From positions 1 to 50,182 of the IMG/VR virus record IMGVR_UViG_3300034375_013216: a stretch of DNA of 50,182 nt; one strand, written 5' to 3'. Shown piece by piece: positions 2-21,968 of this stretch; position 1 is the stretch's first letter, and each line of letters opens with the position of its first letter. The stretch comes from a virus. The position numbers and the translations under genes were made by a program. The notes under the pieces were generated by a model. It saw only the letters and a list, made by a program, of their open reading frames with translations, made no database searches and had not been told where the DNA came from.

Positions 2-2341
2 TGCAGGCGTGATGAGAACAAAGATTTTAACTGGATGCCACTCAGCGCACCGCCTGTTTTCTTCCGCACCACCTTGCCCAAGTGCTCAGAGAAAGTGCAT
101 GGCATGGAAGCTGTCGTAGATGATGGTAATAACTCGGAGTTTATAGTTTGTCAGAGATACCAGGGCTTGATGAGGTGGGTGAGGCAAGGTAGACGGATTC
201 CGCATAAATTTTATGGGAACGAAAAACCTCTGAGCCGCATTAAGTTCACAACGGCATTTAAACAAATCGCCGCGTTGGAAGAGGATACGAGCCTTAGTGA
301 GAATGATAAGTGGCAACAACTAGCAGAGATTACTGATACCTCACTCGATGTTATGTTGTCTGCTACCCCAACAACCGGTACGGACCCTAGGCTTAAAGCG
401 CTATTGCAGGCCGCAAACCTCGTTCCCGCCACTGCTTTCGATGGGGCGCAAACAATGCGCAGGGTCGCCAGCGAAGCGTTAAGAAAACGGACGGGGTTAC
501 CCATCGAAACCATCACAGCGTTGATAAGGGAAGACCTGGATCGGGATGGTGTGCTGACACCCGCTACTGCGCAAGCTTTGTTGGGCATCGGCCGCACAGC
601 CGACGTGTTAGTCAACGGTGTGGCCGACGGAGACATCGAGGGAGCGTTGCTTGGCATTGGGCAAACGACTCTCCGTAATGCTCTTTTGTCTCTCGAACCC
701 CGAGCTGCGTCGGTGATGACCGGCCTAATAAGCGGAGGCATCATGGGCGCTGTTGATAGCGCGGTGGCCATTGGCCTAGATCAGCTCCCCCCTGAAGTCA
801 ATAAGTATGTGTCTCCGGTCCTCGGGATAGCGAAGGACCTCTTACTGTCTTCTTACCCTAAATCTCTTGAAAACATCCTCAGCTCAGCCTCCGGCGGAGG
901 CTTACTAGGGGCAATATCTAGTACGGTGAACGGGGCCATCGGGAATAACATCGTGACTCCTCAGCTCCTCTCGACCGTAGCGACCGGATTGACGTCAGGC
1001 GACTTCGGTGATGTCTCGAAGCTTTTCGGATCGTTGGGGAACCTAGACCAGATTGCTAAACTTCCCGCTCCCGCTGACTCCCTGCCTCTCCTCGCCACCA
1101 CTGCCCTCGGAGTAGCCGGGCAAGTTAAGGCGATGAGTGATTTGCTCGGCAAGGGTGGTATCGGCCTAGACAATCTCGATCAGTTGGTGGGTGGCGGATT
1201 CAGCGCGGCTACGACGATTATATCTGGTATGAAGGGACTGGCCGGCCTGTTCGGTGGAGGCAGTTCATTGGGCTGCCCCTGCGATCCGAAGTGCCGGAAG
1301 ACGAAGCATGGGGAGGATAGTGATGGAAATAATCTACTAGAGAAATGCGGAGCTATGAGTATAGGTGCTAACGCTTATAATCAGTCCGGAAATCCTCTAC
1401 TGAATAATACTGGCCCGATTGCCGAAGCTCTAAAAACGTTGCCAACTGGCGTAGGGGAGGATTTGATTCCCAAAAATATTAGAGATTTAAGTAGAATGAT
1501 TTCGTCAAATCCAAGAGTCCGGGATATGGCGGAGACTGTTTTTAGTACTAGATTTGCAGACCAAGTAGACAAAGTTATTGAAGACACATATACCATCGAG
1601 TCTATTGAAAAGACAGCTAAGGTGATAGATAACAACATTACCCGCATCGAGTCGGTGGAGAAGAAATTAATCGATACGGTGTATAACTTCCTAGCCGCCA
1701 TTGCATATGACAAGAAACTGTCGGGCCGGGATCCAGCTATCCTTCCTACCTTGATCCGCGATGTAAGGGAGAATTCTCAAGCTATTAAAGACCTATATCG
1801 GTTTACGGATAAACTGGATAGAGTGAAAGATGGTGGTACGGCTGGGGTAAACGTAACCACCAGCATCGCTAAAGCTTTCCAGAATATTCCTGATCTCCAA
1901 GCGCTGATTCGGCTGAATCGCAAAAAGGCCCTAGAACTCCTAAGAAACGGGATTACGCCAGCGTATAGAGAATGGAAGAGCATGGATCCAGGGTTCGGAT
2001 TGTCCACGAAACTCGGTGCGTATGATCCGCCCATTCCCGATCCCTATGGCTCAGAGAAAACTCTATTTAACAAAGACCGGATCCTCGCAATCAGCATCGA
2101 GTCGAAGGTAGGAGATAATTCACCACCCGAAGATAATACAGCCCTCGATTTGGCTTTATCGTCTGAGCAATTGGATAGGTTGAAATCGGCATCGACGAGG
2201 TCTTTGGGTCTTGGTGAAAGAGAGTTGAATGGTCTGGGAGACGTCTCTCCATCCGATCTCACGTCAGTTAACACTGACTTCGGTGAAAGCACCTTATACG
2301 ACACGATTGTTGGTCGGGAGGGCCAGACCGATTGTGAATAA
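2..2341 (+). CDS. Large structural protein, 5'-truncated by window edge
   Basis: The frame is open from base 2 with no stop before the first ATG at 35, so the gene most likely begins upstream of the window. Visible are an N-terminal mixed region, a Gly/Ala/Leu-rich hydrophobic middle (about residues 180-410) that could form long helices, and a cysteine cluster near residue 415 (GCPCDPKCRK, then LLEKCG) that resembles a small metal-binding or disulfide-linked knot. A charged helical region and a Pro-rich tail follow. It sits directly upstream of the terminase gene on the same strand. I do not recognise the family. A virion or baseplate role is inferred from size, composition and position; a tape-measure-like role is possible for the hydrophobic helical core. 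Confidence 0.75.
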   Translation, partial: CRRDENKDFNWMPLSAPPVFFRTTLPKCSEKVHGMEAVVDDGNNSEFIVCQRYQGLMRWVRQGRRIPHKFYGNEKPLSRIKFTTAFKQIAALEEDTSLSENDKWQQLAEITDTSLDVMLSATPTTGTDPRLKALLQAANLVPATAFDGAQTMRRVASEALRKRTGLPIETITALIREDLDRDGVLTPATAQALLGIGRTADVLVNGVADGDIEGALLGIGQTTLRNALLSLEPRAASVMTGLISGGIMGAVDSAVAIGLDQLPPEVNKYVSPVLGIAKDLLLSSYPKSLENILSSASGGGLLGAISSTVNGAIGNNIVTPQLLSTVATGLTSGDFGDVSKLFGSLGNLDQIAKLPAPADSLPLLATTALGVAGQVKAMSDLLGKGGIGLDNLDQLVGGGFSAATTIISGMKGLAGLFGGGSSLGCPCDPKCRKTKHGEDSDGNNLLEKCGAMSIGANAYNQSGNPLLNNTGPIAEALKTLPTGVGEDLIPKNIRDLSRMISSNPRVRDMAETVFSTRFADQVDKVIEDTYTIESIEKTAKVIDNNITRIESVEKKLIDTVYNFLAAIAYDKKLSGRDPAILPTLIRDVRENSQAIKDLYRFTDKLDRVKDGGTAGVNVTTSIAKAFQNIPDLQALIRLNRKKALELLRNGITPAYREWKSMDPGFGLSTKLGAYDPPIPDPYGSEKTLFNKDRILAISIESKVGDNSPPEDNTALDLALSSEQLDRLKSASTRSLGLGERELNGLGDVSPSDLTSVNTDFGESTLYDTIVGREGQTDCE

Positions 2342-2369
2342 AGCGCAGAGAGATAAGGAGAAACAATTG

Positions 2370-3914
2370 GTGGTTGAAATGTCGAAAGACATTGAAAACC
2401 TTTCTCTTGCTGATAAAAAAGAGCTACTTAGGCTCCGATGTCGTACAGAGTTTATAACTTTTGCCAAGTTTATTACTAGAGAAGTCACTACGAATGGTAT
2501 TTTTGTCCCATACGATGTTCACTCTCTGATATGCGGGTATGTTCAAGGAATATGTGATGGTGATCCGAGGTATAGACGAACTGTAATATCTCTTCCCCCT
2601 AGAACTGGAAAATCTCTACTAATCAGTAAACTTATGCCAGTTTGGCAGTTAGGACGAAGTCCTACCGCACAATTTATTCTTGCCTCGTATGCTTTAAAAT
2701 TATCTCAAGAATGCTCTAGGTCTATCTTAGCTTATACAACCAGCGAAGCATTTCACTGGATATTTCCGGAATGTGAAGTTTTAGAGAAAAACTCTAACCT
2801 GAAAACCATACGGTCCGAGCAAGGCGGTATTATAATGTCAGCATCTACTGGCGGTGGAGTAACTGGTTTTGGCTATGGAGTAATCAGCGAAGATGATTTG
2901 CCTGGCATAGGAATCATGGATGACTTACTTGAGGACGGTAATTCTCCGCAAGTTCTTGAAAGTGCGTGGGCGTGGGCTTCTAGACAATTTTTAACTAGAG
3001 GTTTGCCCAATAATTGTGTGGCGTCTGTAGGAACAAGATTTAATACTGCTGATGTGTCAGGTAAACTTATAGAGTCTGATCCAGATCTCTGGTTACAACT
3101 TAATGTGCCTGCCCTTTGCATGAATGAAGATACGGACCCGCTAGGGAGAAAACTTAATGAGTCTCACTGGCCTGAGTTTTTCCCAACTTCTGCTTTAGAA
3201 AGTATCAAAAAACAGGATCCGAAAACATTTGAGGTCCTGTATCAGGGTCGACCTAGCAATGAAAGTGGCGCAATATTCAAGGACTTCTGGTTTGAGTACC
3301 ATGACAAGAACAAAGAGGATTACGAATACATCTACGCTACGGCGGATACGGCGCTGAAGAAAGGTGAGATGAACGATTCGTCCGTCATCTGCATATTAGG
3401 GGTTGTTAGGAAAACCAGAAAACTTCACTTGCTCCACGTTTTTTCCGACAAACTAGAATTCCCTGAGCTGCTGAAAGCAATGCCGTTGTGGCTTAAGACA
3501 TGGAAAGTTAGAGCTCTGTACATTGAGGCGAGGGCGTCGGGTTTACCACTAATCCAGATGCTTCGCAAAGAGCTGCAGATACCGGTAAAAGAAGTTATCC
3601 CCACGAAAGACAAAGTAGCTCGCGCGAATGAGGCGGCCCCTATTGCTGAGGAAGGCAGGATCTCGATTTACTCCGATATTCCAAACCTTGGGGAATTAAT
3701 GGCCGAGTTGACGGCTTTCCCGTTCACAAAACACGACGATTTTGTTGATAGCTTTGTGTTGGCAATTAAAGTATTTAGGGATGAGATTATGGGGAGTGGC
3801 AAAGCGGCACACGGCGGAAACCGAATACATCTACCTCAGGCGAACTACTCTGGTGGTAATCAACGGCTGACGTCAAGACTGGGCCGTGGTTCATTGAAAA
3901 CCACATATTTGTAA
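2370..3914 (+). CDS. terL: Terminase large subunit (ATPase-nuclease packaging motor)
   Basis: The DNA-packaging motor cuts concatemers and pumps DNA through the portal. Walker A is LPPRTGKS (about residues 75-82) and a Walker-B-like stretch is GIMDDLLED. The C-terminal RNase-H-like nuclease has its acidic ligands in TADTALKKGEMNDSS, YIEARASG and KHDDFVDS, so the nuclease triad looks intact. The order matches Terminase_6-type large subunits. The open frame extends back to an ATG at 2229, but that would overlap the upstream gene by 113 nt. AAGGAG at 2355-2360 favours GTG 2370 (or TTG 2367); ATG 2379 is another option. Bases 2340-3290, the ATPase half, are visibly more AT-rich than the nuclease half. 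Confidence 0.95.
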   Translation: MVEMSKDIENLSLADKKELLRLRCRTEFITFAKFITREVTTNGIFVPYDVHSLICGYVQGICDGDPRYRRTVISLPPRTGKSLLISKLMPVWQLGRSPTAQFILASYALKLSQECSRSILAYTTSEAFHWIFPECEVLEKNSNLKTIRSEQGGIIMSASTGGGVTGFGYGVISEDDLPGIGIMDDLLEDGNSPQVLESAWAWASRQFLTRGLPNNCVASVGTRFNTADVSGKLIESDPDLWLQLNVPALCMNEDTDPLGRKLNESHWPEFFPTSALESIKKQDPKTFEVLYQGRPSNESGAIFKDFWFEYHDKNKEDYEYIYATADTALKKGEMNDSSVICILGVVRKTRKLHLLHVFSDKLEFPELLKAMPLWLKTWKVRALYIEARASGLPLIQMLRKELQIPVKEVIPTKDKVARANEAAPIAEEGRISIYSDIPNLGELMAELTAFPFTKHDDFVDSFVLAIKVFRDEIMGSGKAAHGGNRIHLPQANYSGGNQRLTSRLGRGSLKTTYL

Positions 3915-3925
3915 TACCTTTACGC

Positions 3926-3931
3926 TATAAT
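3926..3931 (+). promoter_or_regulatory. Possible sigma-70-like -10 box
   Basis: TATAAT lies 9 nt before the homing endonuclease ATG, right after the terminase stop. No convincing -35 or TG extension is visible. If used, the transcript would be nearly leaderless. Confidence 0.35.
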
Positions 3932-3940
3932 TTTAATATT

Positions 3941-4807
3941 ATGAACACAGTAGTTTACCAGTGGCTCAGGGAGGATGGAAGTCCTTACTATATTGGGATT
4001 GGTAGTCCTAGAAGGCCTTACACAGGTAAGAGGAACTGTGGTGGTCCTCCCCCTAGAGACAGAATTGTCATTCTATATAGAAATCTTGATTGGGAAGAAG
4101 CTTGTAAAATTGAGAGAGAGCTGATAACTTTTTATGGAAGGAAAGATTTGGGCACAGGAATTCTTCGCAATTTAACCGACGGGGGTGAAGGGGCTCGTGG
4201 AGTAGTTATGTCGGAAGAAACCAAGGCGAAAATTTCTAAGGCGGTGTCTGGTGAGAATCACCCTTTGTATGGTAAGAAGGGAGAAAAAAGTTACTGGCAC
4301 GGTAAAACTCATTCGGAAGAAACTAAGGCAAAAATGTCTAAGGCTAGGTCTGGAGAGAATCACCACATGTATGGTAAAAAGCATACTGAGGAGGCCAAGG
4401 CGAAAATGTCTAGGGCCCATTTAGGCAGAAGGCATTCGGAAGAAACCAGAAAGAAAATGTCTGGAGGGAACCATAACATGTACGGTAAAAAACATACGGA
4501 GGAGACCAAAGCGAAAATATCTAAGGCTCTATCAGGAGAAAATCACCCTATGTACGGTAAAAAACGTACGGAGGAGAGTAGGGCGAAAATTTCTGGAAAA
4601 AATAACCCTCGCTACACACCTAGAGACTGGTATCACCCTATTCACGGAGAAGTTCTACAAAAATCTATATCAGAGCTAGCCGAGATGTTCCCGGAGCAAA
4701 AACTCCTCAGATCGTCTCTTTCTACGGTATGTAGCGGTAAGAGAAATCACCACAAGGGGTGGAAGGTGCTAAGCCCAGCTCCACTAGTATCTCATTCTAT
4801 GTTATAA
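3941..4807 (+). CDS. GIY-YIG homing endonuclease with NUMOD3 repeats
   Basis: A free-standing homing endonuclease of the Seg/I-TevI type. The N-terminus carries a GIY-YIG-like signature (VYQW..DGSPYYIGIG, residues 5-21), with ERELITFYG and NLTDGGEG further on, as in this family. Residues about 90-215 are a chain of NUMOD3 DNA-binding motifs of the form (S/T)EE(T/A)KAK(I/M)S(K/R)A with intervening G(E)NH.MYGKK units. The C-terminus (SISELAEMFPEQ..LRSSLSTVCSGK...GWKV) looks like a small helix-turn-helix module. It is inserted between terL and the thioredoxin-sigma operon and is probably selfish. Such enzymes usually cut at or near their own site in related phages; here the neighbouring terL would be the obvious target, which is inference. 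Confidence 0.9.
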   Translation: MNTVVYQWLREDGSPYYIGIGSPRRPYTGKRNCGGPPPRDRIVILYRNLDWEEACKIERELITFYGRKDLGTGILRNLTDGGEGARGVVMSEETKAKISKAVSGENHPLYGKKGEKSYWHGKTHSEETKAKMSKARSGENHHMYGKKHTEEAKAKMSRAHLGRRHSEETRKKMSGGNHNMYGKKHTEETKAKISKALSGENHPMYGKKRTEESRAKISGKNNPRYTPRDWYHPIHGEVLQKSISELAEMFPEQKLLRSSLSTVCSGKRNHHKGWKVLSPAPLVSHSML

Positions 4808-4808
4808 T
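4800..4808 (+). promoter_or_regulatory. Extended -10 promoter of the thioredoxin-sigma operon
   Basis: TGTTATAAT is an extended -10 (TGn-TATAAT) 28 nt before the thioredoxin ATG. It overlaps the end of the endonuclease gene. No clear -35 is visible, which is acceptable for extended -10 promoters read by host RNA polymerase. The same TGn-TATAAT form occurs at 32327. Confidence 0.5.
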
Positions 4809-4836
4809 ACACCTGTACTAGTCAACAAACCTATCT

Positions 4837-5154
4837 ATGACTGAATTTAAGTACAGAGTCGTACTGTTTCGACAACCGGGCTGCCCCGCCTGCGATGCCA
4901 TGGCGCCCATCTTCGCTCAAGTTGCCGGTGAAGTCGAAGAAGAGTATCCGGAACTTCGTGTGGGCTGGGGAGAATTCAATGTTCTTGACGACAACTGGGA
5001 GTTTTTAGAGTCTCTCGTCCCTGGAGAATCGGGCAACGGTACCCCTGAATTCGCCATCTTCGATGAAGAATGTGACCTCATCGCATTTAATGGGGAGGGA
5101 ATTATGCCCGCCAGCCAACTCAAGGATTTTGTGATCTCTTCGATTCGTAAGTGA
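4837..5154 (+). CDS. Thioredoxin-like protein
   Basis: A 105-residue thioredoxin-fold protein. The N-terminal beta strand leads into GCPACDAM, giving the redox pair C16/C19 (CPAC). A cis-proline motif occurs later (GTPEFAIF). Length matches small thioredoxin or glutaredoxin-like proteins. It probably acts as a cytoplasmic disulfide reductant, for example for phage or host ribonucleotide reductase, or modulates host redox enzymes; the partner is unknown. The sigma factor follows after 4 nt, so the two are likely co-transcribed from the TGTTATAAT promoter. Confidence 0.88.
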   Translation: MTEFKYRVVLFRQPGCPACDAMAPIFAQVAGEVEEEYPELRVGWGEFNVLDDNWEFLESLVPGESGNGTPEFAIFDEECDLIAFNGEGIMPASQLKDFVISSIRK

Positions 5155-5158
5155 ACCT

Positions 5159-5875
5159 ATGGAACTAAATTCCAAGCACCGGGGCAGGAAGCGCACTGAG
5201 TACGAGGTCGTTCGGGACCGGCATATCCGTGAGAATATGTGGAAAGCGGCCCATGTAGCGAGAAAGGTGTCGACGTTTAGCGGTCTCCCCTTCGAAGATC
5301 TCAGATCGGTCGCTCTCGAGGCAATGGTCAAACTCTACGATAAGTGGGATCCGAGCAGGGCGAACTTCAGTACGTGGCTGAATCGATCTCTGACATTCCA
5401 GGTTCTCAACTACCTTCGCGATCATTCTCGGATGATTCGGATGCCGAGGCTATACGCTGATGTGTACATGAAGATTCGGAAGATCATTGGGGCGAATCCG
5501 GACATCGCTGATTGTGAAGTGGCCGAGCAGACCGGCCTCGATGAGATCTTGATTAGGGAGACGAGAAAGGCGTATCTGGTCACTTACACTGAGATCAACG
5601 AGGACACGGAGATGCCTGTCGAGGACGAAGAACTCGACAAAGATACATTGCCCAGGATGCTAGAGGACTACAAGGGTACGCTGGAGCGTTTGGCCGATTT
5701 ACCAGAGGCTGAATACGACTTTCTCATTGACGTGTACGTACACAAACGGGCGTATTCGACCATCGCTCGGAAAAACCCCGGCATCTGTAATGCTGAGAAG
5801 ATACGGGCGAAGACAAACGAAATCATGGAGAAGATTTTGACTGAGGAGGATGATCCGTGGCTAGGAAATATGTAA
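5159..5875 (+). CDS. Phage-encoded sigma-70-family RNA polymerase sigma factor
   Basis: Residues about 43-97 match sigma region 2: LPFEDLRSVALEAMVKLYDK, then FSTWLNRSLTFQVLNYLRDH and SRMIRMPR. These cover core binding, -10 recognition and melting. Residues about 113-140 (NPDIADCEVAEQTGLDEILI) look like region 3. An acidic linker and a weak region-4-like C-terminus follow (YSTIARKNPGICNAEKIRAKTNEIMEKI). At 238 residues it is shorter than primary host sigmas and similar to group 3 or phage sigmas. It should redirect host RNA polymerase to phage promoters; the GTTGAAAGC motif found across this window is the obvious candidate target (inference). The next gene starts inside its 3' end. Confidence 0.88.
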   Translation: MELNSKHRGRKRTEYEVVRDRHIRENMWKAAHVARKVSTFSGLPFEDLRSVALEAMVKLYDKWDPSRANFSTWLNRSLTFQVLNYLRDHSRMIRMPRLYADVYMKIRKIIGANPDIADCEVAEQTGLDEILIRETRKAYLVTYTEINEDTEMPVEDEELDKDTLPRMLEDYKGTLERLADLPEAEYDFLIDVYVHKRAYSTIARKNPGICNAEKIRAKTNEIMEKILTEEDDPWLGNM

Positions 5876-6567: not shown

Positions 6568-7053
6568 GCGGGCGGCCTCGTCCGCCAAAATTTCGGAGAT
6601 AGTCGGATCATCTCGCAGTGCTGGGCTGAGCCAAGGACGTTCAGAATCCGCAGACCTTGTATACATCGTGTAGATGGGTTGGGGTTTACGCCCAACAACC
6701 GACTCTTCACGCTTCCCGTACTTCTCTTCGAGATACCTGATGACCGGTGAGTCCGGACCCTGCTGCTCGAGTTCGGCCTCGAGATCTTTGAGAGATTTTT
6801 GGAGAGCAGTGTATAACTTTTCGCCGTATCCGTCACTATCGATCTCAACGCTAATCGCTTCGACCGACCGGACATATTGTGAGATATTGTGCGTGACCTC
6901 GGTCGCGTATCCCTCGGCTACGGTACGAAGGAATTCTTGCCTCACACTGTCGGCTACCTGCGACACCGCTTCGCGCTTCAGGATCTGTTTTGCTGAGTCG
7001 TCTATGACGTCGCGTAGGAATAAAGCGAGAAGGGGGCGGAGGAGGGGGGTCAT
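6529..7053 (-). CDS. Hypothetical helical protein downstream of baseplate hub
   Basis: A 174-residue, mostly helical, acidic protein with no recognised motif. Its ATG overlaps the hub gene's TGA as ATGA, implying translational coupling. It is the last gene of the unit 10801-6529. Visible elements are a hydrophobic N-terminus (PLLRPLLALFLRDVIDD), a charged helical middle (YTALQKSLKDLEAELEQQG), and an acidic C-terminus. A small tail or baseplate accessory, or hub chaperone, is the contextual guess. Its 3' end overlaps the opposing HNH-like gene by 39 nt. Confidence 0.7.
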   Translation of the reverse strand: MTPLLRPLLALFLRDVIDDSAKQILKREAVSQVADSVRQEFLRTVAEGYATEVTHNISQYVRSVEAISVEIDSDGYGEKLYTALQKSLKDLEAELEQQGPDSPVIRYLEEKYGKREESVVGRKPQPIYTMYTRSADSERPWLSPALRDDPTISEILADEAARLFDRIFTPPEVS

Positions 7054-10000
7054 GGGTTAATGTTTTGGCAGTCTAACTCTCCAAATACTTGTTTAGCAAA
7101 ATCCCTTCTCTTTTGAATACCTCCTGGACCTCTCTCATAACATTGATTCCAAATATCTGCAGCATCTTCAGGAGTAGCAGCAGAATTGATACGGTCAATC
7201 CAATTATCTCTAAGGCATTGAGGAGATATGTTCCTACCTGTCTTTATCTCTTCAGCAGTATTTTCTAGCTGTTGCTGCAAAGAGCAGGTTTTTCCACATT
7301 TAGCTGCTAATTCATCAGCCCTACTACCACACATTTGAAATAGCCCATAACCGTATTTACCTAATATCCTTGAAGGAGTACTTGCACATCCTTCGAAAGA
7401 AGGGTTTTCATTGTGTACATTAAAATTCAAAGTACTTTCAGCAAGGCCATTTCCTATGACTCCTGCATAGGCTACTTTGGTGTTAATTCCAACAGACCTT
7501 AGCATACCCATGATCTGATTAGCAACTTCTGGTTTAACTCTTCCCCTGCTTGTACATTGTGAGGCAGGAAAGTTAGAGTCTACACTGGGGCCGTTTGTCT
7601 GATCACCTGGCTTCAGGAAATTCCTGAGCTTCTCGGTCTCCTGACATATTTCCTCACAACTGGTCTTACCACTCTTCAGTTTCCAGCATAGGTCACCGAG
7701 AGATCTGATGTACCCATAGTAGTCTTTGGTCTTATCGAGACCGGCCACAGCTAGGTAATCGTCGAACGGGGGGGAATCAGCCTTCGCGACATCGACCCCC
7801 CAGTCAGTAACGCCTGTCAACGATACACGCAGATCGCCCTGATTCCAGTTGTAACTGGCTTGATTCACAATGTATTTCGAAAACCTCCCCGCAATCCACA
7901 CCCCCGGATCGATGTCGGCCGGCTTACCCTTCTCAATCCACTCATCGTAGCGGGTCACGAAAGAAAGGATAGTGCGGCCAGGAGTGATCCGAAGCGCCCT
8001 CGGAACCCCTTTAAACTCCGTCCTAATCTCCGCTCCTCGGACAGCCGGACCGCCACGCACACCGGATCCGAATCTACTTCCAGTACCCACTCTAGTGCCT
8101 GTAACCCCAGAAGTCGACCCATCAGACAAATGCCCAAGAAGTATCTCACCCTTAGGCGTACTAATAACGACGTAGTTACCGTACCCTCCAGGATTATTAC
8201 CTACTTCTGTAACCGTGCCATTCAATAGAGTGATGTATTGGTTCTCAATTCCCGCTCCTGCTATGTCTACACCAGTATGTGGCTTGCTTCTAAAACTTTC
8301 CTGAGCCCCATAACCACTAGTCGTACCCCATTCTGATGGGTTTTTGCCCCCCACCTTAATGATTCCATCTAAATCCGCTGCAGTTATTGCCTTTGCGGGT
8401 TGAAATTCGGCGTGAAGGTGATATCCAGTAGTTCTGCCGGTATTCCCCACCCTTCCAATCGGAGTACCCTCAGCCGACCCAGTCGTCGCAGGAGCTGAGG
8501 GTGTGGATTGCGTCTCAGTCAAACCAATGTCTTTGCGTTCCTGATCACTCAGATCTTCGACGGGGACAGCGTATTTCCAGACAATGGACGGAGACAAAGT
8601 GACTTCACTCGCCCCGGCAAGAAAGAACCTGGTGTGTTCCGGATTCTCAGCCGTCGAGGTACCTAGAGGCTGGTTGAGCCTCACATCGGCCCCAGGCTTG
8701 ATATCCCCTGCGAGCTGAAGATTCCTCGTCTCCTGAACAATAATCCTATTTTGGCACGGGGGCTTATTCCCTTTCTCGCAAAACCTAACAAAGTAGTTCG
8801 TATTGATTCGGACCAGACCTTCTGGGGCTACGGAGACCCGGCCATCCAGAAGCGCGATGGGCTCGGTGCCATTGACATTCAACCCGAACAAATTGATTTT
8901 TCTTTTCCTCACCGTCGTCACTTTCGGCCCGGCCGATTCCCACACATAACCCGAGGTAGACAGATTATCGATGTACCGCTTTGTATAGGTCTCGAACTGG
9001 CCCGGGAAACTCATCAAGGATGTTTTGGCGTTCTTCAACTTCGCCTTTCGTTTCTGCGGATAGATATCACTGATCTCGTATTCGATTTCCTGGAGACCCG
9101 TTCTATCGTATTGATAGCCTAGGCCCATCTCCTCCGCGAACTCGCGGTTCAGATTGTTAAGGGTCTGAGGAACTTGCCCGGTGATTTGATACGACTCGTA
9201 CAGTCCTTTACCCAAATAGAATACCGAACAGCCCTGGTTGATGTTAGCTCGGGTGCAGATGCTGATCTTTTTAGCAAATTCTTGGGTAGGCAAAGAGAGA
9301 TAATTTCCCTTCACGCTCTTGACATATTTGTTAATGATTTCCCCCGCTGTGACCTTCCTTTCCTTAAAGGCCTGAGGCATTATATACTCCTTTGTGTCCG
9401 TTTGCGACGGATCGGTGCAGAAGGAGACCTTATAATCGTATCGCTCTACAATCGACTTCAGATTCTCCTCCAGTGTTTTGTTCTCCTCCATCTGGAAGTT
9501 AACAAGGTTTTGGTTGAAAATCACACTTTGCGGATCTACACCCTGTAGGTTTACGCGTGGAAAAGCCGAACCATGCTCGATGGAGAAACCTTGCAGGCGA
9601 AAATACGATGTAAGGCCGAATCTAGTTCCAGCAACGTCATAGTAGTACTGAATCAGTAGGTGGGCGAAGGATCCGAAGCCTGTTGAGTTGAGATTAGGAT
9701 CGTCGATTTCTTGGTAGTTCCAGCATTTCCCCGAGGCCGGACTCTCACCTTCCGCACAAGCCGGTAACATGATTTTGTTGGCCGCCGCGTTCTGACTAGT
9801 AGTATACGCGGCAGCAGAGTCGAAAAGAGCTGCCCAGGCGATTCCTGTCATATACGGATCAGACAGCGTGACGTTAGCTGTCGAGCCGGTCAACGAATTG
9901 ACAAACTGGCTGAGAGTCGTCTCCGAGTCGAGGTTGGTCGCAACGGAGTTCGGATCCCAGCGCAGGTTGACATTCGCGCTGACAACCTGCCTTTCCGGAA

Positions 10001-10070
10001 ACGTGATAAGCCGGCTACTGGCGTACGGCCGATAGCTTACCGTACACTTGCAGCGGTATAGGCTATGCAC
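7050..10070 (-). CDS. Baseplate hub / tail-tip protein with M23 peptidase and tail-lysozyme domains
   Basis: A 1006-residue tail-tip protein. The N-terminal half includes LGKGLYESYQITGQ, which recalls hub proteins. Residues about 535-660 carry all M23 metallopeptidase motifs but in permuted order: GRVGNTGRTTGYHLHAEF (HLH about 551-553) comes first, then HTGVDIAG (H598, D602), VTEVGNNPGGYGNYVVIS and LLGHL (H647). Residues about 835-1000 match phage tail lysozyme (Phage_lysozyme2): VAYAGVIGNGLAESTLNF (E878), then GYGLFQMCGSRADELAAKCG. It would puncture peptidoglycan at DNA injection. The start is GTG, 9 nt after the upstream stop, with no clear ribosome site. The lysozyme part (7060-7560) is AT-richer than the middle of the gene. 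Confidence 0.88.
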   Translation of the reverse strand: MHSLYRCKCTVSYRPYASSRLITFPERQVVSANVNLRWDPNSVATNLDSETTLSQFVNSLTGSTANVTLSDPYMTGIAWAALFDSAAAYTTSQNAAANKIMLPACAEGESPASGKCWNYQEIDDPNLNSTGFGSFAHLLIQYYYDVAGTRFGLTSYFRLQGFSIEHGSAFPRVNLQGVDPQSVIFNQNLVNFQMEENKTLEENLKSIVERYDYKVSFCTDPSQTDTKEYIMPQAFKERKVTAGEIINKYVKSVKGNYLSLPTQEFAKKISICTRANINQGCSVFYLGKGLYESYQITGQVPQTLNNLNREFAEEMGLGYQYDRTGLQEIEYEISDIYPQKRKAKLKNAKTSLMSFPGQFETYTKRYIDNLSTSGYVWESAGPKVTTVRKRKINLFGLNVNGTEPIALLDGRVSVAPEGLVRINTNYFVRFCEKGNKPPCQNRIIVQETRNLQLAGDIKPGADVRLNQPLGTSTAENPEHTRFFLAGASEVTLSPSIVWKYAVPVEDLSDQERKDIGLTETQSTPSAPATTGSAEGTPIGRVGNTGRTTGYHLHAEFQPAKAITAADLDGIIKVGGKNPSEWGTTSGYGAQESFRSKPHTGVDIAGAGIENQYITLLNGTVTEVGNNPGGYGNYVVISTPKGEILLGHLSDGSTSGVTGTRVGTGSRFGSGVRGGPAVRGAEIRTEFKGVPRALRITPGRTILSFVTRYDEWIEKGKPADIDPGVWIAGRFSKYIVNQASYNWNQGDLRVSLTGVTDWGVDVAKADSPPFDDYLAVAGLDKTKDYYGYIRSLGDLCWKLKSGKTSCEEICQETEKLRNFLKPGDQTNGPSVDSNFPASQCTSRGRVKPEVANQIMGMLRSVGINTKVAYAGVIGNGLAESTLNFNVHNENPSFEGCASTPSRILGKYGYGLFQMCGSRADELAAKCGKTCSLQQQLENTAEEIKTGRNISPQCLRDNWIDRINSAATPEDAADIWNQCYERGPGGIQKRRDFAKQVFGELDCQNINP

Positions 10071-12989: not shown

Positions 12990-15900
12990 ATGGCTACGAA
13001 GGTTAGTGGTGACTTCGGTCTTAGCGGTCAGTCGCTAATCGGTGAGCTAAGGAAACGTGCGCCGAAGTTAGAGGGTCAGGCTAACTTTATCGGTCTTCAG
13101 CGCTCTCTTGCTCTCTCGGATCTCGAAGATCCGACTGAGTCGTTGAACAATGTACTTGATAAAATATCCCTAACTGAATCTGCAGAAAGAAATCAATACG
13201 GCGGACCTTTTAACGCTTTAGACTGGAATGTCACATCGGATTTTGTAGATGAGCAAATTGATAAATCATTTTTGAGTCGACTACAGAATGTTAGTATTGG
13301 CGGTGGATCGCTGGGTAGTTCGGTTTCCACGACACCGAGGATAAGGATTCAAGATAGGCTTAGCTTTCTTAACTCTTTTTATGGTGAGGGTAGTTTTCCA
13401 GGTCTCCACAGTGGTCCGGACGCCATGTTCTACAGGAGTCCAGAGCCAGACCACATCGGATACGTAAAATTTACCTTTAACTCTAGCACAGGATCCGTAA
13501 CAACAACTGAACTAAAAGAACCAGATAAAATCACCAACCTCTCCTTACCGAGTATTTTAGGAACTGAGAGTGCCATAATCCTCGATTTAGTTGAATATGA
13601 GACTGCTGAAGGACTGACTGTTAATTTAAGTGGAACAGGTATTTCCCTGCGTCTCGATTCCCCTAGTACATGGAGTGTAACAGGAACAAGAGCATTGAGT
13701 AGTTTGTCCGGCATCCGGAGCTCGGTGGGAGGACAGGTAACCTTCGCCGCCTTACGTTTCAAGCTGGTCCGACCTTACTCAGTTCTTTACAAACCATCTT
13801 GGTTTACACAGGATCCTGCGGATCCTATTGTTGCTGGAGGAGCCGATGATACTAATCTAACCACCACCAACCGCATTATGCGGAACGATAACGGTACGAT
13901 TAAACCGTACATCGAGAAAGGTTATTGGTATAGCCGCGCATACGTCGAGACACGGTGGACACCAACGGAATATAGTCTTCTCACCAATACCCAAAACAAC
14001 GAAGTCACAGTTGTCGAAGATTCTAATATGAGGTGGCAGCAGCCTCCTTCTCCGATTAGATCAGAAGTATACAACTGGGGTATCCGGTGGGATGGATATT
14101 TGAGAGTCGAGCCGGGCATCTATGCCTTTGAAGTACAAACCAATGCTGCCATCAAAATAGATATGGCAATAGGTTCGGGGGGAGCCTGGGTCGAAGTGTT
14201 TAGTACTGATACGGCTGCCCAAGAGTCAGAGGAAAAATACGTATCAAGTCAATCTTTCAATACCGACAATGTCTCAGGTACATATAAATATATTTTTGGG
14301 ATAAACCCAACATCTGATTGGGTAGCCTATGTTCCTATCACAGTTCGTCTTTACCATGGTGGTCCGGACAAAATAGATGATGAGTTCATTGCCCCTAGTG
14401 AACCTAATCTGTTTATAAAAACAACCTCACTAGCATCAGAGGTCAGTTTTTATAGCGAAAACTACATTATCACTCTGTCTGGTGCCGATGGAAGCTGGAG
14501 CGTAGATAGTAGTGCGTTAGCCGATATAATAACTATTCTTCAAGATACAGACGCGTCGGTATCGTACCGGTTGACGGCAGAGGGGGACGACATCTTTACC
14601 TCTCCAGTCAGCATAGATCTGGCCACTGACAGTACTAATGTTACCAGTACTACGACCGGGCTGTCTGCGGCCACCTATACTTTAACCTTATCCCCCGACC
14701 GCGCAGGGGTAAATTTCAATAACAATCTGACCGCCCTCTGGAAAGGCCGCATCGCATCCCCCAGCCCGATTCACACCGGATACACCGACCTCGCTGATGG
14801 AAGCTATGAACCCAACCTGCAAAAGATACCTTTTGATCTGAGGCCTGAGTGGTGGAAAGTTTCCGAAGGTCACCCGTATAACCTAGATAATCCAGCCAAC
14901 GATGACAACACTCCACTTGATGGGTTTTTAAGGAATGAATTTAAGAGTACACTGAAGTCGGATGTTGAGGGGTTGGGGTTATACGGAGATGGGGGAGAGT
15001 TAAAAAATGGAACTTTTACCATAGAAAATGGTATTATGACAGGAACTGGTACTGAGTTTTTAACTGACTTAGTAATAGGAAGTAAATTTACTATAGAAGA
15101 TACAGAGTTTACAGCTTTAGATATAATTTCTGACTTGGAAGCTAGGGTCTCTCCCGACAACGTGTCAATACCGTCTAGTCTTTCTTTAAGTATCGTCACC
15201 TATAAAGAAGTACCCAACATCATTTTCGGTGAATCGAGGTATTCGGTCAACGATGAGTTAGGGTCCAACTACTGCGGTCTCCGGTTAACACCGAATTTAG
15301 TTGGGGAAGGTGGTAAACTCTCCGTCAGTTCTTTGCCAGTCAATAGCACCGAGTACAACGATGCGACTTTGCTGGGTGAGGACGATCTTGGCGGTTCACC
15401 AAATCACCTTACTGGGGCGAGTGGAAAGGTCTCATCAGAGACAATTAAGCTATTTTTGGCCGATCTAGCCGATACGGCTGATGATAAGTACGATAAATAC
15501 TACACTTTGTTCGTATACACAGATCTAGCTAGTTTTCCGGTATCTGGGGATGTGACGGTGACTTACTTTGATAATACTGACAGTAAGTATTATACTTGGG
15601 ATGGCAGCACATACGTGGAGGATACAACTCCGTCTTCTGATGACCCCACATCATATGGTCTACCAGCATTCTCTGATAACGCCTGGCTATCTCCTATCAC
15701 TGTATCAGTTGTCCAGGCTGGATCTCAGTACTTAACCGCACCTCTGACGATGGTTGTGGAGAGGCTGGAGCTTACCCCTGGGGTATTTTTCCTGCAATTT
15801 TCTACAACCCAGCCTTCTCTTCTCACTGGTGGCGCCGACATCGGTGATTTTAGTGGGGAAGACATTACCTTCTATACCGAATCTAACGTAGCGTTTCAGT

Positions 15901-16421
15901 ATCTCCGTGTAGACAGTGGGGAAGGCATCGCATTTGCCGATGTCCTTAAGTTGACGTACGACGATAGCGATGTATTTCAAGGGGTTTCTAGCGAAGTCCC
16001 TCGGCCCCCCTCCGACCGTGTAACCCCTTTCGGTTTCGATAACCCGCAATATACCGCTGGACTCTGCTATCCCCCTTATAGCATCGCTAACACACTTCTG
16101 TCCGGTATCGCTATTGAAGACGCTGATCTCTACGATGCCAGTACTCCTGTAGGTAATTACGATGTATTTTGGGGAGACCAGAGTAAATCTGATCTGGGCG
16201 GTAAGACTCTTACCGTCACTGAAAAACTAGAATTTCAGCAAGCCGACGACAATGCGGTAGAAGAAATAGTTGGTGGTGTGACCGTAGCTTACGACGATTA
16301 TACGCATCGGCTAAAAATAGATATGCCTTTGTCCGGGTCTTTCGACCCGGATATGCTCGAGCATATTGGTAACCTGGAGAGAGTTAAAGAGTCTTATTAC
16401 GCCTACGTAAAACTGGACTAG
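12990..16421 (+). CDS. Large structural protein with PA14-like domain
   Basis: A 1143-residue structural protein. Residues about 310-400 read as a PA14-type carbohydrate-binding domain: GYWYSRAYVETRW, then WGIRWDGYLRVEPGIYAFEV followed by the NAAIKIDM strand, the usual 'W.G.l.p..G.Y.F....d....l.iD' pattern. The rest is beta-rich with repeated strand/turn segments and few charged clusters. It is transcribed alone from its own GTTGAAAGC motif. A baseplate, fiber-connector or receptor-contact role is likely but unproven. It ends in a stop codon shared as CTAG with the convergent neighbour. Confidence 0.8.
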   Translation: MATKVSGDFGLSGQSLIGELRKRAPKLEGQANFIGLQRSLALSDLEDPTESLNNVLDKISLTESAERNQYGGPFNALDWNVTSDFVDEQIDKSFLSRLQNVSIGGGSLGSSVSTTPRIRIQDRLSFLNSFYGEGSFPGLHSGPDAMFYRSPEPDHIGYVKFTFNSSTGSVTTTELKEPDKITNLSLPSILGTESAIILDLVEYETAEGLTVNLSGTGISLRLDSPSTWSVTGTRALSSLSGIRSSVGGQVTFAALRFKLVRPYSVLYKPSWFTQDPADPIVAGGADDTNLTTTNRIMRNDNGTIKPYIEKGYWYSRAYVETRWTPTEYSLLTNTQNNEVTVVEDSNMRWQQPPSPIRSEVYNWGIRWDGYLRVEPGIYAFEVQTNAAIKIDMAIGSGGAWVEVFSTDTAAQESEEKYVSSQSFNTDNVSGTYKYIFGINPTSDWVAYVPITVRLYHGGPDKIDDEFIAPSEPNLFIKTTSLASEVSFYSENYIITLSGADGSWSVDSSALADIITILQDTDASVSYRLTAEGDDIFTSPVSIDLATDSTNVTSTTTGLSAATYTLTLSPDRAGVNFNNNLTALWKGRIASPSPIHTGYTDLADGSYEPNLQKIPFDLRPEWWKVSEGHPYNLDNPANDDNTPLDGFLRNEFKSTLKSDVEGLGLYGDGGELKNGTFTIENGIMTGTGTEFLTDLVIGSKFTIEDTEFTALDIISDLEARVSPDNVSIPSSLSLSIVTYKEVPNIIFGESRYSVNDELGSNYCGLRLTPNLVGEGGKLSVSSLPVNSTEYNDATLLGEDDLGGSPNHLTGASGKVSSETIKLFLADLADTADDKYDKYYTLFVYTDLASFPVSGDVTVTYFDNTDSKYYTWDGSTYVEDTTPSSDDPTSYGLPAFSDNAWLSPITVSVVQAGSQYLTAPLTMVVERLELTPGVFFLQFSTTQPSLLTGGADIGDFSGEDITFYTESNVAFQYLRVDSGEGIAFADVLKLTYDDSDVFQGVSSEVPRPPSDRVTPFGFDNPQYTAGLCYPPYSIANTLLSGIAIEDADLYDASTPVGNYDVFWGDQSKSDLGGKTLTVTEKLEFQQADDNAVEEIVGGVTVAYDDYTHRLKIDMPLSGSFDPDMLEHIGNLERVKESYYAYVKLD

Positions 16422-18316
16422 ATAGCCAATAGCTTCGCATCTTTAACTTGGGTTCCGTCTTGGTAAGAGAACAGGGGCCAGGCTTTGACAGTATAGGTGG
16501 GCTCTGTCCGTACCGTATCGACGGCAAGCTGGCGATGATAGACAAACCCGCCATTGCTAGACTTACTGGACGAAGATATATTTTGCACTAAAACGGAGAG
16601 TTGTGTGTCAAATCCAATGATATCGCTAACCCCAGGGCTATCAACAGCCGGGTTCAGATACCCCGCACTCACACTGTACTTGTTCTCCCCACTCTCTGCT
16701 AGCTCATCAGTATCGTTTAAACCGTATATCGCGGGGCTCAAGTACTTCTTGCCCTGTTGGCTCATAAACGGTTTGTCATCAGAGCTAAACACTCTCTGGT
16801 ATTTATCTCCAGTCCAGAGCCAGATACCTGGAATATTTTGATTAAATAGACTTGTTTCATATGCATCAGTCAGTTCGCGTAGCTGGAAAAACCCTATCTG
16901 ATACGCAGTAACACTACCAGAAGTCGTTTTACTATCTGTCGCCACCACAGTAAACGTATCAGTGCTTGTAACAGTAATTGTATAAGTACCATCTATTGCT
17001 GTGCCGGTAGTAAAATCGAGGGTTATAATGTCGTCTGTTGATAAACCATGGCCACCACTAATAGTCACAATGATAACATCGTCTGATTGACTATAAGTCC
17101 CATACATATCCTGGTCTAAAACAGAATCCGGATCTCTGAAAACTAACCGATAATTAGAGTTGATATTTCTACCATCAATGATATTGTATTTAGTCCCTAG
17201 GCTATTCTGCTCACTGGTTTCTACTAGGGGCTGCCTTATATTTTGAACGAAGTACTTAAACCCGTCCCGTAGTTCCTCAGCCCGATCAGACAGACTACGT
17301 ATCGTACCACCAATGCTATCCCCCGCCTCGTAGTTCTCATCGTAATCCCAGAACGCCGACCTGCCGTTCAGGTTATATAACTGTACAAGGTTCTCTGAGG
17401 ACAAAATGTCTTGTCTTTTTACCACAAGCGAGGGAGTTTCTACCGCAGCGAATTGCTGTATAGAGTCGTATGCAGACCCCAGGAACACATAGTCTTGATC
17501 TTTGTCATCGTATAGAAAAAACCCGTCTCTGTCCGCAAACCGAACTCTGTACGTATATCTCTCGTTCCGTAACAACGCCCTGGCTGACACCTGACCGTTG
17601 ACGAAATAGGACTGATACAGGGCGTTTCCGGCGTAGTTCAGGCATTTATCTTCAGCCGGATCGTCTTCTGGTCCACATGATGGGATGAGCTCGAGGAGTT
17701 CTTGGTCAATATACCCAGACCCTGCCATTATCACTGTAACACCGGCCGACTGGTCCAGCCTCCCGTCCGCTTTAACTGTAACCTGGACAACAGCGTTGTT
17801 GGCTCCGGATTCTAGACCGATGACACGTACATTAACCGTGGCCGGAAGACTCACGACATCTCCGCTCGAATCTAACACACTGTACTGCTCACCAATCCCT
17901 AACACGGAAACCGCTACCAAAGACCCATTTACAGACACTTTAATCGGTGCGCCTGAGGTCTCAGTTACCGTGCGCTTATCGAGACCGCTAGGGACCTTCT
18001 CAAACCATACAAGATTGTTGTCAGAGAAAGTGTATAAACTCTGTAGTTCACTTTGAGGGCTAGTTTTGCCTAGGGTGACAAATTTAGTCCGAAGGGATAC
18101 GTTACCGAGGGAGTCAGATATCGGCTCGTTGATTAAACCGTAGATCTGGTTATCAGACTCTGTGCTTGGAGAGGATATGACAGACTCCAGTCTGCTCGCA
18201 AAAGCGAATAGTAGCAGATCCTGTTGGACTTGTGGTCCGTATAATTTTTGCACCGCATCGGTTGCATTGAGACCTTGCTCGGACAGATTGAAGCGGGTAT
18301 AGAGACCGGAAGCCAT
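16418..18316 (-). CDS. Structural protein with 'HGL' beta module
   Basis: A 632-residue protein. N-terminal residues (SGLYTRFNLSEQGLNATDAVQKLYGPQ) are helical. A cysteine pair lies near residue 200-220 (LIPSCGPEDDPAEDKCL). Around residues 430-490 is a small beta module, ISGGHGLSTDDIITLDFTTG followed by IDGTYTITVTSTDTFTV, a pattern that recurs in marine phage tail and fiber proteins. Third gene-unit member after the 21968 leucine-rich-repeat gene (7-nt gap). Baseplate wedge or fiber-base role is inferred from context. Confidence 0.75.
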   Translation of the reverse strand: MASGLYTRFNLSEQGLNATDAVQKLYGPQVQQDLLLFAFASRLESVISSPSTESDNQIYGLINEPISDSLGNVSLRTKFVTLGKTSPQSELQSLYTFSDNNLVWFEKVPSGLDKRTVTETSGAPIKVSVNGSLVAVSVLGIGEQYSVLDSSGDVVSLPATVNVRVIGLESGANNAVVQVTVKADGRLDQSAGVTVIMAGSGYIDQELLELIPSCGPEDDPAEDKCLNYAGNALYQSYFVNGQVSARALLRNERYTYRVRFADRDGFFLYDDKDQDYVFLGSAYDSIQQFAAVETPSLVVKRQDILSSENLVQLYNLNGRSAFWDYDENYEAGDSIGGTIRSLSDRAEELRDGFKYFVQNIRQPLVETSEQNSLGTKYNIIDGRNINSNYRLVFRDPDSVLDQDMYGTYSQSDDVIIVTISGGHGLSTDDIITLDFTTGTAIDGTYTITVTSTDTFTVVATDSKTTSGSVTAYQIGFFQLRELTDAYETSLFNQNIPGIWLWTGDKYQRVFSSDDKPFMSQQGKKYLSPAIYGLNDTDELAESGENKYSVSAGYLNPAVDSPGVSDIIGFDTQLSVLVQNISSSSKSSNGGFVYHRQLAVDTVRTEPTYTVKAWPLFSYQDGTQVKDAKLLAI

Positions 18317-18323
18317 GGTAGTA

Positions 18324-21300
18324 TCAGACGATTAGTTTCAGGACCTGTCCTGAGGAGTTTTCCCAGCACGTTCCTGCTCCTACCCCTTGAGGGCAAGATG
18401 TCAGAGCGGTGAGTCCAGACTCAGTGATCGACCCGTTTCGAGTTGTCGGGTTTTCGTAGGTAGTAGAGACAATTGTGGTTCCAGAACTCGGGGAGATGTA
18501 TGTAAATCCTAAATCGATTCTGATTTTTTTCAAATTTTTGTACTTAACAGCCAATTCTGATTCCGTGGTAACCTGAGTCGCGTTTCTTTTTGTTTTGTAG
18601 TAGTCCCCACTGACAAAAGAACCTGGTACTTGCCGAGATTGAGTGGACACCTGAGTGTAGGATGTAGTGGAGTTACCAGTGTCATCGGCTATAGTAATTT
18701 CCTCATATACCTGAAACTGTTCAATGCGATTCAGAGAAGTGACGATACCCGGTCCTGCTGAAACTCCAGTTGGGAATATTTCCTGCTGAGAGTAATTTGA
18801 GTATTTATTGTCTGAGGATAGTTTGTTGCCAGAGAGTTTTACTAAGCAGTTATTAAATCCAGTACTAGACTCTAGATTTGATACCTCTTCGATAATTTTT
18901 GTTATCTCGAGAGAGGGCAAGTTGTTGTTAGACAGGTCTACTGTGATTCTTCTGGTATCACCAAAGAAAATCTTGGACAGACTACCAGATTCATATTCAG
19001 AGATCATGTTGTTGCTTAAGTCAACAGCATTATACGAGGTGTTAACTACCTTATTGAAGCCTGAACGGATATTTAATTTACCAGACAACTTACAATTTCT
19101 TGCTCTGAATTGTGTGAGCTCGGTAAAACTAGTAGCAAACCAGCCGCTAATGTCTATAGTCTTTCGACCGAAATAGAAGTTGGAGCCTGATCCGCTGATA
19201 TTGTTACTGATCACAACCTCGGTGTCTTTCACACTAAGTACCGTAGCTACCTTAGGTCCGCCTGCACTCAACCTGACTTCATCATTGACCTGTACTTTCT
19301 TTTTCATATCAGTCCCCCCAGTCAGCTTATAAATCACATCGGCTTCACTGCTGCTGCTGGAGGGGGTCAGAGCGGTGAGAGACAATCCGCTGATAGTGGT
19401 TTCCGGGTCACTATCCCGCACACATGCCCCACGTAAAGACGCCACAGACCAATCTGACCTATACGTGCTAGGAAGAGATCCGTTCAGATCGACATATCTT
19501 ATTCCAGCCTCAGAACTCCCCTCGAAGTTGGGCAATATAGCTCCGCCTCCCCCGACGTTCATCTTCCAGGCATTTATCGTCCGTACATCTCTAGAAAAGT
19601 TGTCGTTAGTCGGAGTTATAGACAAGCTGGACAAATCATAGAAATCGGACCGGTTGATCTCCAGAGTAATAGACTTAGTCTCTGTTTCTTTAAACTCCTT
19701 TAATGGGAATTTAGGGAACCTCCCGGTTAACCTACTCCCAATACAATAAAATAGCCCGAGGTCGTATAGATACTGGAGATCGTTAGACCGAATGTAGTGA
19801 GCATTGTTATAGTAGTGTACGTAGAAATTTTTTAGTTTATGGTTACTACCAGAACCTCTGTTCGGTGCGAAGTTGACAGGTAAGAGGTAGGGTATGGTAT
19901 TATCGGTTACCGGATCGATGCCATTACAGGATCCAATGTCGATTGTCAACATAGCTGAGGTTTCATCTACTGTCCCTAGAGATGGCATGGGGCCATCGGT
20001 ATTAGATCCGTAGAGACTGAGTGAGACTAGTTTAGGTGTTTTCAACGGCGATGTTTGAAAGCTCGATATTGGTGTATCAAATTTGACACCGCCGGAAAAT
20101 CCGGCGTTAAGCTGCTGGAGCTGCGTCCATTCACCGTTTTGAAGGTCTATCGATACATTCGTACGGTTGATATCGATAGACGTCGTAGCAGCTTTCCAGG
20201 CTGACCAGTCTGAGCTGTCGTCAGGGTTATTGATGAATCCGGAGATTGCGTGTGTTTGCGAGTGACGCCCACCGATATTAAAATACCCCATATTGTACTT
20301 GGACACATACCCGGCATCAGCCACGTCGGTCGATGTTCCTACATCAGTGATGTCTCCTGACGCACCAGAACCATAAATGTTATACGAGGTGAGTTTTCCG
20401 TTGTTGGCTATCTTGGGCAGGTTGTTGAACAAAAACCTGTATAGCCTGTCCTCTACACTGTTCGACCAGTCCAGGGTTTTGAGACCAGGAAATACATCAT
20501 CGAATCTCGGGCTACGACCGTAGAATCGGTCGCCGAGCCTTAAGGTCTCTAGGGCTGAGAATACCCGATAGTCGGTATTCTCAGTGCGGGATTGGTTTAG
20601 CAGATATTTCTCAAATATATCATCCGACCAATCGTCCCCGTCCTCATTAAGGAACACACCGGTCTGAGGTACTGTCAAGTAGCTGACAGCGGTGTAGAGT
20701 GGGGTCTTGTTCGCTATCAAGCTTACCCCAGTGATATTGGTAGTCGTGGCTGAGGGATTCCTAACATCGAACCAGCCCATTGGGCCATTGCGCCACCGGT
20801 CACCTGAAGTAGATAAGTCCAAGGTGCGAAGTTTGGTTCTCAGGGTTTTTAACCACAGGGGTAAAATAGTCATCGAACCACCAGACATCTTGAAAGTCTC
20901 GAGGTTGCTGAATCCTATCAGGCCGAGATCTTTTTGATCGGGGAACTCTTTAACATCGATGCCAGAGAATTCTATTCCTTTAACCTTCAAGGGGTTGACA
21001 TAGATGTATAGGTACAAATCGTAGATGTTCTGGAAACCTGTTGTGGTGATATCGATGTTGGCGGTAAAGTCTGGTACACCTTCTGCCGGATTACTGATTG
21101 TTACGGGCAGAAATTCAATCGGAGTGGTGTTAGGGCGTTGTTGTGCAGGTTGGATTTGCAGTCCGTAGAAGAATCTGTCTGAGTTTGTCGTATTTTCTGT
21201 GAAAGTAAATTTAATAGACCCAGTTGCCATCCGGCAATACACCCGAAGAGGGGTGTTTTTAGTGGCCAGCAGCCTTACCGGCTCTGAGGTGCCGGTATTA

Positions 21301-21968
21301 TTGTCTACATTGAGATTGATTGTATGAGTAGGGAACTCTAGAACCCCGGGTTTGGCCAGAAAACTGGTTTTTGGCAGTAAGATTCGATTAACATGCGAAC
21401 GCCTGCGGACTCTGATGCTTCCTGCATACCTCGCACTTTTGAAATAGCCCGGGTTAGCCGTATCAGCCTCAGCGTTGAATAGGCTGGCACGGGAAGTGGA
21501 CATAGCCACGTTCTGTTTTAAGGCAGACCCGAATATACTGCCTTCTGGATTGATAACATTTTGCCTATAACTCGCACTCTCGCACTGTATCGATCCGTTG
21601 AACAGCACGATGTTGGGTGATTTTACCAGAGGCGAACCACCGCCACCACCCAGAGGGTACTCAGGGTTATAGAAATCTTTGTTGACATATAACTGTGTCG
21701 GAATGCGATCCAGGAATACTTCGCTAAGTTGGTGGAGAGATGGCAGGAGTAGGCGATTGAGCCCCGATGCGGCTCTAAGGTCTTCGCGGGAAATCTCAGC
21801 GTATAAACCATACAGAGAATCCAAAACCTCTGGCTGAATCTGGATATTTCTAAGCGCATTACGCTTATCCGACTCAAAGATCTCGGAAAGGTTAGCGAAG
21901 CTATCAGATGCCAGGCCAATGTCTGGACGTGAAAATTGTCCAAAGCCGGGAAATAACGACTCACTCAT
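18324..21968 (-). CDS. Giant leucine-rich-repeat structural protein
   Basis: A 1214-residue protein. After an N-terminal helical attachment region come degenerate leucine-rich repeats: LRTLDLSTSG, LETLRLGDRF, LKTLDWSNS, VSLSLYGSN, and near the C-terminus VDLSNNMIS, VDLSNNNLPS and LVKLSGNKLS, spanning roughly residues 350-1070. The LxxLxLxxN spacing supports a solenoid suited to protein or glycan binding, so a receptor-binding or tail-associated role is plausible. It heads the unit 21968-16418, with GTTGAAAGC 21 nt upstream. A second, smaller leucine-rich-repeat gene lies at 45518. Confidence 0.8.
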   Translation of the reverse strand: MSESLFPGFGQFSRPDIGLASDSFANLSEIFESDKRNALRNIQIQPEVLDSLYGLYAEISREDLRAASGLNRLLLPSLHQLSEVFLDRIPTQLYVNKDFYNPEYPLGGGGGSPLVKSPNIVLFNGSIQCESASYRQNVINPEGSIFGSALKQNVAMSTSRASLFNAEADTANPGYFKSARYAGSIRVRRRSHVNRILLPKTSFLAKPGVLEFPTHTINLNVDNNTGTSEPVRLLATKNTPLRVYCRMATGSIKFTFTENTTNSDRFFYGLQIQPAQQRPNTTPIEFLPVTISNPAEGVPDFTANIDITTTGFQNIYDLYLYIYVNPLKVKGIEFSGIDVKEFPDQKDLGLIGFSNLETFKMSGGSMTILPLWLKTLRTKLRTLDLSTSGDRWRNGPMGWFDVRNPSATTTNITGVSLIANKTPLYTAVSYLTVPQTGVFLNEDGDDWSDDIFEKYLLNQSRTENTDYRVFSALETLRLGDRFYGRSPRFDDVFPGLKTLDWSNSVEDRLYRFLFNNLPKIANNGKLTSYNIYGSGASGDITDVGTSTDVADAGYVSKYNMGYFNIGGRHSQTHAISGFINNPDDSSDWSAWKAATTSIDINRTNVSIDLQNGEWTQLQQLNAGFSGGVKFDTPISSFQTSPLKTPKLVSLSLYGSNTDGPMPSLGTVDETSAMLTIDIGSCNGIDPVTDNTIPYLLPVNFAPNRGSGSNHKLKNFYVHYYNNAHYIRSNDLQYLYDLGLFYCIGSRLTGRFPKFPLKEFKETETKSITLEINRSDFYDLSSLSITPTNDNFSRDVRTINAWKMNVGGGGAILPNFEGSSEAGIRYVDLNGSLPSTYRSDWSVASLRGACVRDSDPETTISGLSLTALTPSSSSSEADVIYKLTGGTDMKKKVQVNDEVRLSAGGPKVATVLSVKDTEVVISNNISGSGSNFYFGRKTIDISGWFATSFTELTQFRARNCKLSGKLNIRSGFNKVVNTSYNAVDLSNNMISEYESGSLSKIFFGDTRRITVDLSNNNLPSLEITKIIEEVSNLESSTGFNNCLVKLSGNKLSSDNKYSNYSQQEIFPTGVSAGPGIVTSLNRIEQFQVYEEITIADDTGNSTTSYTQVSTQSRQVPGSFVSGDYYKTKRNATQVTTESELAVKYKNLKKIRIDLGFTYISPSSGTTIVSTTYENPTTRNGSITESGLTALTSCPQGVGAGTCWENSSGQVLKLIV

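Follow-up and report, generated by a model that had tools for sequence, protein, structure and literature searches.

A circularly permuted M23 peptidase domain and a lysozyme domain in one virion protein of an S-TIM5-like phage

The locus and the domains of its 1006-residue protein

The window analyzed here spans the 50,182 bases of virus record IMGVR_UViG_3300034375_013216. The gene neighborhood includes a terminase, a sigma factor, PhoH, and a portal protein, surroundings that fit a tailed phage akin to cyanophage S-TIM5. We investigated the multidomain protein encoded by the open reading frame (ORF) described in Table 1. Full-length orthologues, 28 to 29% identical, are found in S-TIM5 and three related isolates, in gene surroundings similar to those in the window. 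The S-TIM5 orthologue (AEZ65701/H6WFX6; 29% identity), which has SigF, PhoH, and TerL among its neighbors, has the same permuted M23 and lysozyme domains; however, it is annotated only as a virion structural protein, and its record is silent on permutation. Elsewhere in the window, five long ORFs without any Pfam match (632 to 1330 aa; positions 12990 to 29126) probably encode structural proteins, and a 288-aa ORF adjoining the terminase gene (positions 3941 to 4807, plus strand) carries five NUMOD3 motifs and is probably a homing endonuclease relative.

Table 1. Features of the ORF and its product (positions are those of the window)
Feature	Residues	Positions	Strand	Remarks
Whole ORF	1006 aa	7050..10070	(-)	GTG start; virion protein combining hub-like, pseudo-M23, permuted M23, and lysozyme regions
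Tail-tube-like N-terminal hub region (tentative)	1-344	9039..10070	(-)	T5 chain matches
Pseudo-M23, normal order, without catalytic residues	345-501	8568..9038	(-)	Lysostaphin/LytM, Z about 8 over 344..501
C-terminal part of normal M23, placed first	534-557	8400..8471	(-)	GRVGNTGRTTGYHLHAEF; H551, H553; profile positions 85-108
Linker joining normal C and N termini	558-582	8325..8399	(-)	Between both profile segments in all relatives
N-terminal part of normal M23, placed second	583-667	8070..8324	(-)	H598, D602, GGYGN, H647; profile positions 6-89; core pLDDT 90-97
Hub-like fold, second part (tentative)	680-765	7776..8033	(-)	Tube-like matches reach 763
Tail lysozyme	829-1001	7068..7586	(-)	Phage_lysozyme2; E878 probable catalytic Glu

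Chains of the T5 tail tip and tail tube matched the model over residues 3 to 763 with Z scores of 8 to 9, at an rmsd above 5 Å and with low pLDDT in that region, so that the double barrel of the baseplate hub/tail-tube superfamily is a tentative assignment here. Residues 680 to 765 are the most conserved stretch of the family. The first-pass annotation, made from the sequence alone, had called the product a tail-tip protein, a designation that weak tube/hub fold similarity, the virion annotation in S-TIM5, and the lysozyme domain suggest rather than establish. Its prediction of a C-terminal lysozyme domain containing E878 was borne out: Phage_lysozyme2 (PF18013) matched residues 849 to 997 (1.5e-14 for the whole protein; 54.8 bits against a cut-off of 28.2), the best structural match was phi29 gp13 (3csq_D; Z 15.1, 3.6 Å over 148 residues), and E878 is nearly invariant in a 12-member alignment. 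A GMP_PDE_delta match was set aside (E 0.16).

Adjoining the permuted domain upstream is an M23-like fold that had been overlooked in the first reading and that is kept throughout the S-TIM5-like family. Profile-profile support for it in the window is weak (67%, 19 columns), and S-TIM5 matches Pfam M23 at the same position. No HxxxD, GHL, or HxH was found at its aligned positions in any family member. A second complete M23 copy had been named as evidence against a permutation; a second M23-like fold does exist (residues 345 to 501), but since it lacks the catalytic residues, it cannot supply a missing half.

Motif order and profile continuity of the M23 domain

The M23 motifs of the ORF occur in the order HxH, HxxxD, GHL, whereas in canonical M23 the order is HxxxD, GHL, HxH. 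The two halves are rotated, such that GxxGxTG..HLH (residues 534 to 557) comes first, followed by the linker and then by TSxYG, HxGxD, and GHL (residues 583 to 667). All six residues to which the earlier reading had drawn attention (H551, H553, H598, D602, H647, and E878) are in place, and it was correct that every M23 motif is present (H598/D602, H647, and H551/H553). The normal order is nevertheless not that of this protein, and membership is therefore claimed as a circular permutant of M23 (PF01551) rather than as a standard member.

Pfam M23 (PF01551) aligned residues 597 to 669 to positions 2 to 71 of its 96 and matched a second stretch as well, for a score of 40 bits in two stretches (curated cut-off, 28.7). 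We built a canonical M23 profile of 119 positions independently from 23 canonical domains of bacterial and phage loci. This profile matched the protein twice, in reversed order: residues 534 to 557 aligned to positions 85 to 108 (16.9 bits), and residues 584 to 667 aligned to positions 6 to 89 (21.4 bits). The canonical alignment was then written twice to give a doubled profile, which a rotated domain can match across the join while the viral sequence is left unaltered. A single match resulted, residues 534 to 667 to positions 85 to 208, and it carries the summed score, 39.2 bits; the maximum among 2000 shuffled copies of the protein was 10.0 bits. Profile-profile alignment likewise gave two pieces against the single profile (98.1% and 97.6%) and one piece against the doubled profile (99.5%, E 3e-23). 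The 21 other proteins tested, from the family and from Acinetobacter and Moraxella phages, also span the join, some only partly. The permutation cut lies at profile positions 85 to 89, so the protein has one M23 domain, which is complete and rotated.

Could the order be an accident of assembly, or could two tandem M23 copies each have lost one half, leaving pieces that form no domain? The M23-like copy upstream makes tandem-pair remnants conceivable. However, that copy forms a fold of its own, the two segments between them account for the whole M23 profile exactly once, and the rotated order is common to all complete IMG/VR relatives, to four isolated cyanophage genomes, and to Acinetobacter and Moraxella phages. 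Because the order is shared with isolated S-TIM5-like cyanophages at 29% identity, it is not an assembly error, and we regard this explanation as having almost no chance of being right. The permuted order first read from the sequence is thus upheld by the reversed two-piece match, the single doubled-profile match, and its conservation in relatives.

Within the 12-member alignment H551, H598, D602, and H647 are invariant. H553 is His, or Asp in two contigs (L003 and L004), where it occupies the third zinc-ligand position. Asp also fills this position in the majority of the wider family, which makes enzyme activity in that branch uncertain.

The M23 blocks of contigs L003 and L006 differ despite near-identical flanks, as do those of S-TIM61 and S-TIM66. 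Swaps of the M23 block and of the C-terminal lysozyme block were each seen between proteins with near-identical flanks (L003 versus L006; L003/L006 versus L004/L005; L011 versus L012), and both blocks behave as if they were exchangeable cassettes. An extra block of ~220 residues separates the pseudo-M23 from the permuted M23 in L003 to L006 and L022. It has no Pfam match; its motifs (AGHAD... and EIHND) are reminiscent of a zinc amidase, which would make it a third wall-cutting domain.

Predicted structure and candidate active site

An AlphaFold2 model of the M23 domain, computed with 24 related sequences, is one compact domain (mean pLDDT 84.3, core 90 to 97, pTM 0.78). The suggestion that the domain could fold as a circular permutant agrees with this prediction, and no predicted fold separating the two M23 segments was seen. 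Superposition on canonical M23 structures, which the first-pass annotation had proposed, succeeded in part. Such structures superpose only on the second segment (about model residues 44 to 139), where lysostaphin 4qpb aligned to model residues 47 to 138 with Z 5.8 and 2.6 Å over 84 residues; the LytM/lysostaphin-like fold was thus recovered for that segment with a sequential aligner, while the HLH segment was left unmatched, as a rotated domain and a sequential aligner would lead one to expect. A Foldseek search of the PDB with the domain model gave no match below E 1, which is likewise expected of a sequential aligner given a rotated domain. Whole-domain superposition was obtained with predicted structures, namely S-TIM5 H6WFX6 (the best, TM 0.67) and a tape measure protein of an uncultured phage. 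When the permuted profile was searched against PDB sequences, no match spanned both segments in one stretch. The cyanophage A4 pre-ejectosome (9k2v) aligned structurally across the whole domain, suggesting a solved permuted M23, but was rejected, as its 1058-aa protein, which matches ORF28 of Anabaena phage A-4L, has the normal order.

In the permuted fold, the linker of ~25 residues would join the normal N and C termini, and the new ends would fall in the loop that lies between the strands of GHL and GxxGxTG. Folding would bring together H553, H598, and D602 as putative zinc ligands, and H551 and H647 would be the catalytic histidines.

Hub proteins are oligomers, and the active site might accordingly be completed between subunits, with the HLH of one protomer placed on the HxGxD and GHL of its neighbor; the domain would then be swapped rather than permuted. 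The monomer prediction is, however, compact and confident, the linker has only about 25 residues, and the same order recurs in very different architectures (tape measure proteins and a 248-aa S-EIVl protein). We consider such an arrangement very unlikely.

A more serious rival, though still an improbable one, is that the permuted domain has the M23 fold and is no enzyme, serving instead in a structural role or in wall binding, as the M23-like domain upstream might. That upstream copy has indeed lost its catalytic residues, and HLH is replaced by HLD in many permuted relatives. Against this, the four other active-site residues are invariant or nearly so in a domain that has diverged to about 25 to 45% identity, and this constancy points to catalysis under selection.

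We therefore favor, at a probability of about 0.8, a tail hub that cuts peptidoglycan at DNA injection and whose zinc M23 endopeptidase is a true circular permutant. Most likely the hub brings the zinc endopeptidase and the lysozyme to the wall during entry; the M23 domain would cut peptide cross-links, and the C-terminal lysozyme would cut glycan strands. With its new ends close together, the domain could be accommodated as an insertion within a hub or a tape measure protein. The circularly permuted character of the M23 domain, its conserved order, and its folding as one domain by prediction are supported.

Spread and origin among phages and significance

Acinetobacter and Moraxella phages have permuted M23 domains in tape measure proteins, and Synechococcus phage S-EIVl has one in a 248-aa protein annotated as peptidase M23. 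In genome searches, a permuted domain gives one full-span match, and a canonical domain gives two reversed matches or one half. Full-span permuted matches were found in 8 of 199 Moraxellaceae genomes, where every one fell in an ORF longer than 1000 aa, and in 1 of 274 gammaproteobacterial genomes drawn evenly (an Acinetobacter centre genome, E 1e-10).

The profile search for other permuted M23 domains that had been proposed at the outset was productive. Three DNA-pattern scans of viral contigs yielded at least 277 readable loci, among which at least 245 permuted domains in 14 clusters (50% identity linkage) were recognized by profile; the scan pattern demanded the permuted order and certain codons, and these counts are a lower bound, not a frequency. 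The figure of 245 is the 246 obtained by rule minus locus L287, which is canonical on inspection, and the domains lie in viral loci L086 to L165 and L208 to L404. Most are inside tape measure or hub-type tail proteins; several cluster representatives are tape measure proteins, and in others the permuted M23 is accompanied by a lysozyme or a glucosaminidase domain. In normal M23 the second His of HLH is a zinc ligand. Among these permuted domains Asp replaces it in 181, against 63 with HLH (counts inflated by near-identical prophages), while the other active-site residues are kept.

The tape measure gene of Acinetobacter phage Ab105-2phi (L036, positions 1967 to 4399 and 4479 to 5531) is annotated as several shorter ORFs, the first of which stops just after the permuted M23; in the relative YMC11/11/R3177 the tape measure is one ORF of 1436 aa.

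Once both blocks had been arranged in a common order, a tree of 55 permuted and 23 canonical rows separated the two groups without exception at one branch (support 99/96, or 79/100 without the junction columns), with at least four changes between HLH and HLD. A single origin of permuted M23 is tentatively favored by this unrooted tree of few columns, whose permuted rows were recruited by similarity. On balance we lean toward one old permutation that would have founded a phage M23 branch and spread as an exchangeable insert in tape measures, hubs, and tail lysins, often with a His-to-Asp change at the third zinc ligand.

A lysozyme and an M23 endopeptidase on one tail protein are already known from the tail-knob protein gp13 of phi29 (PDB 3csq), to whose lysozyme residues 829 to 1001 correspond. 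In gp13, however, the lysozyme precedes the M23, the M23 is in normal order, and there is neither a hub part nor a pseudo-M23. The tape measure proteins of Acinetobacter Vieuvirus and Moraxella phages Mcat18-23 share the rotated order but have HLD in most cases, embed the domain in a tape measure protein (PF20155), and have no lysozyme domain that we could find. M23B enzymes (LytM, lysostaphin, EnvC, and ShyA) share motifs and core fold and differ in their normal motif order, with about 100 residues from HxxxD to HxH. Circular permutation is known in the NlpC/P60 superfamily, which includes wall hydrolases, in its LRAT-like and YaeF/G6R branches (PMC6403190); these are unrelated to M23 and have another fold and cysteine chemistry. 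We found no permuted M23/LytM in the open-access papers searched, the PDB, or the family libraries searched, an earlier description elsewhere being possible, and the text of an M23 review (PMC9662197) does not contain "permut". A circularly permuted M23 thus seems to be a previously undescribed form.

Few families of wall-cutting peptidases have been studied as well as M23, yet its family profiles presuppose one motif order. Pfam either halves the permuted form or scores it below the cut-off, and many phage tail lysins are therefore under-annotated. The natural permutants, with HLH and with HLD, are a ready set for testing what the zinc site requires. The permuted form further suggests that the M23 fold accepts new termini in the loop that follows GHL, a tolerance that would explain how the domain can be inserted in mid-chain in tape measure and hub proteins.
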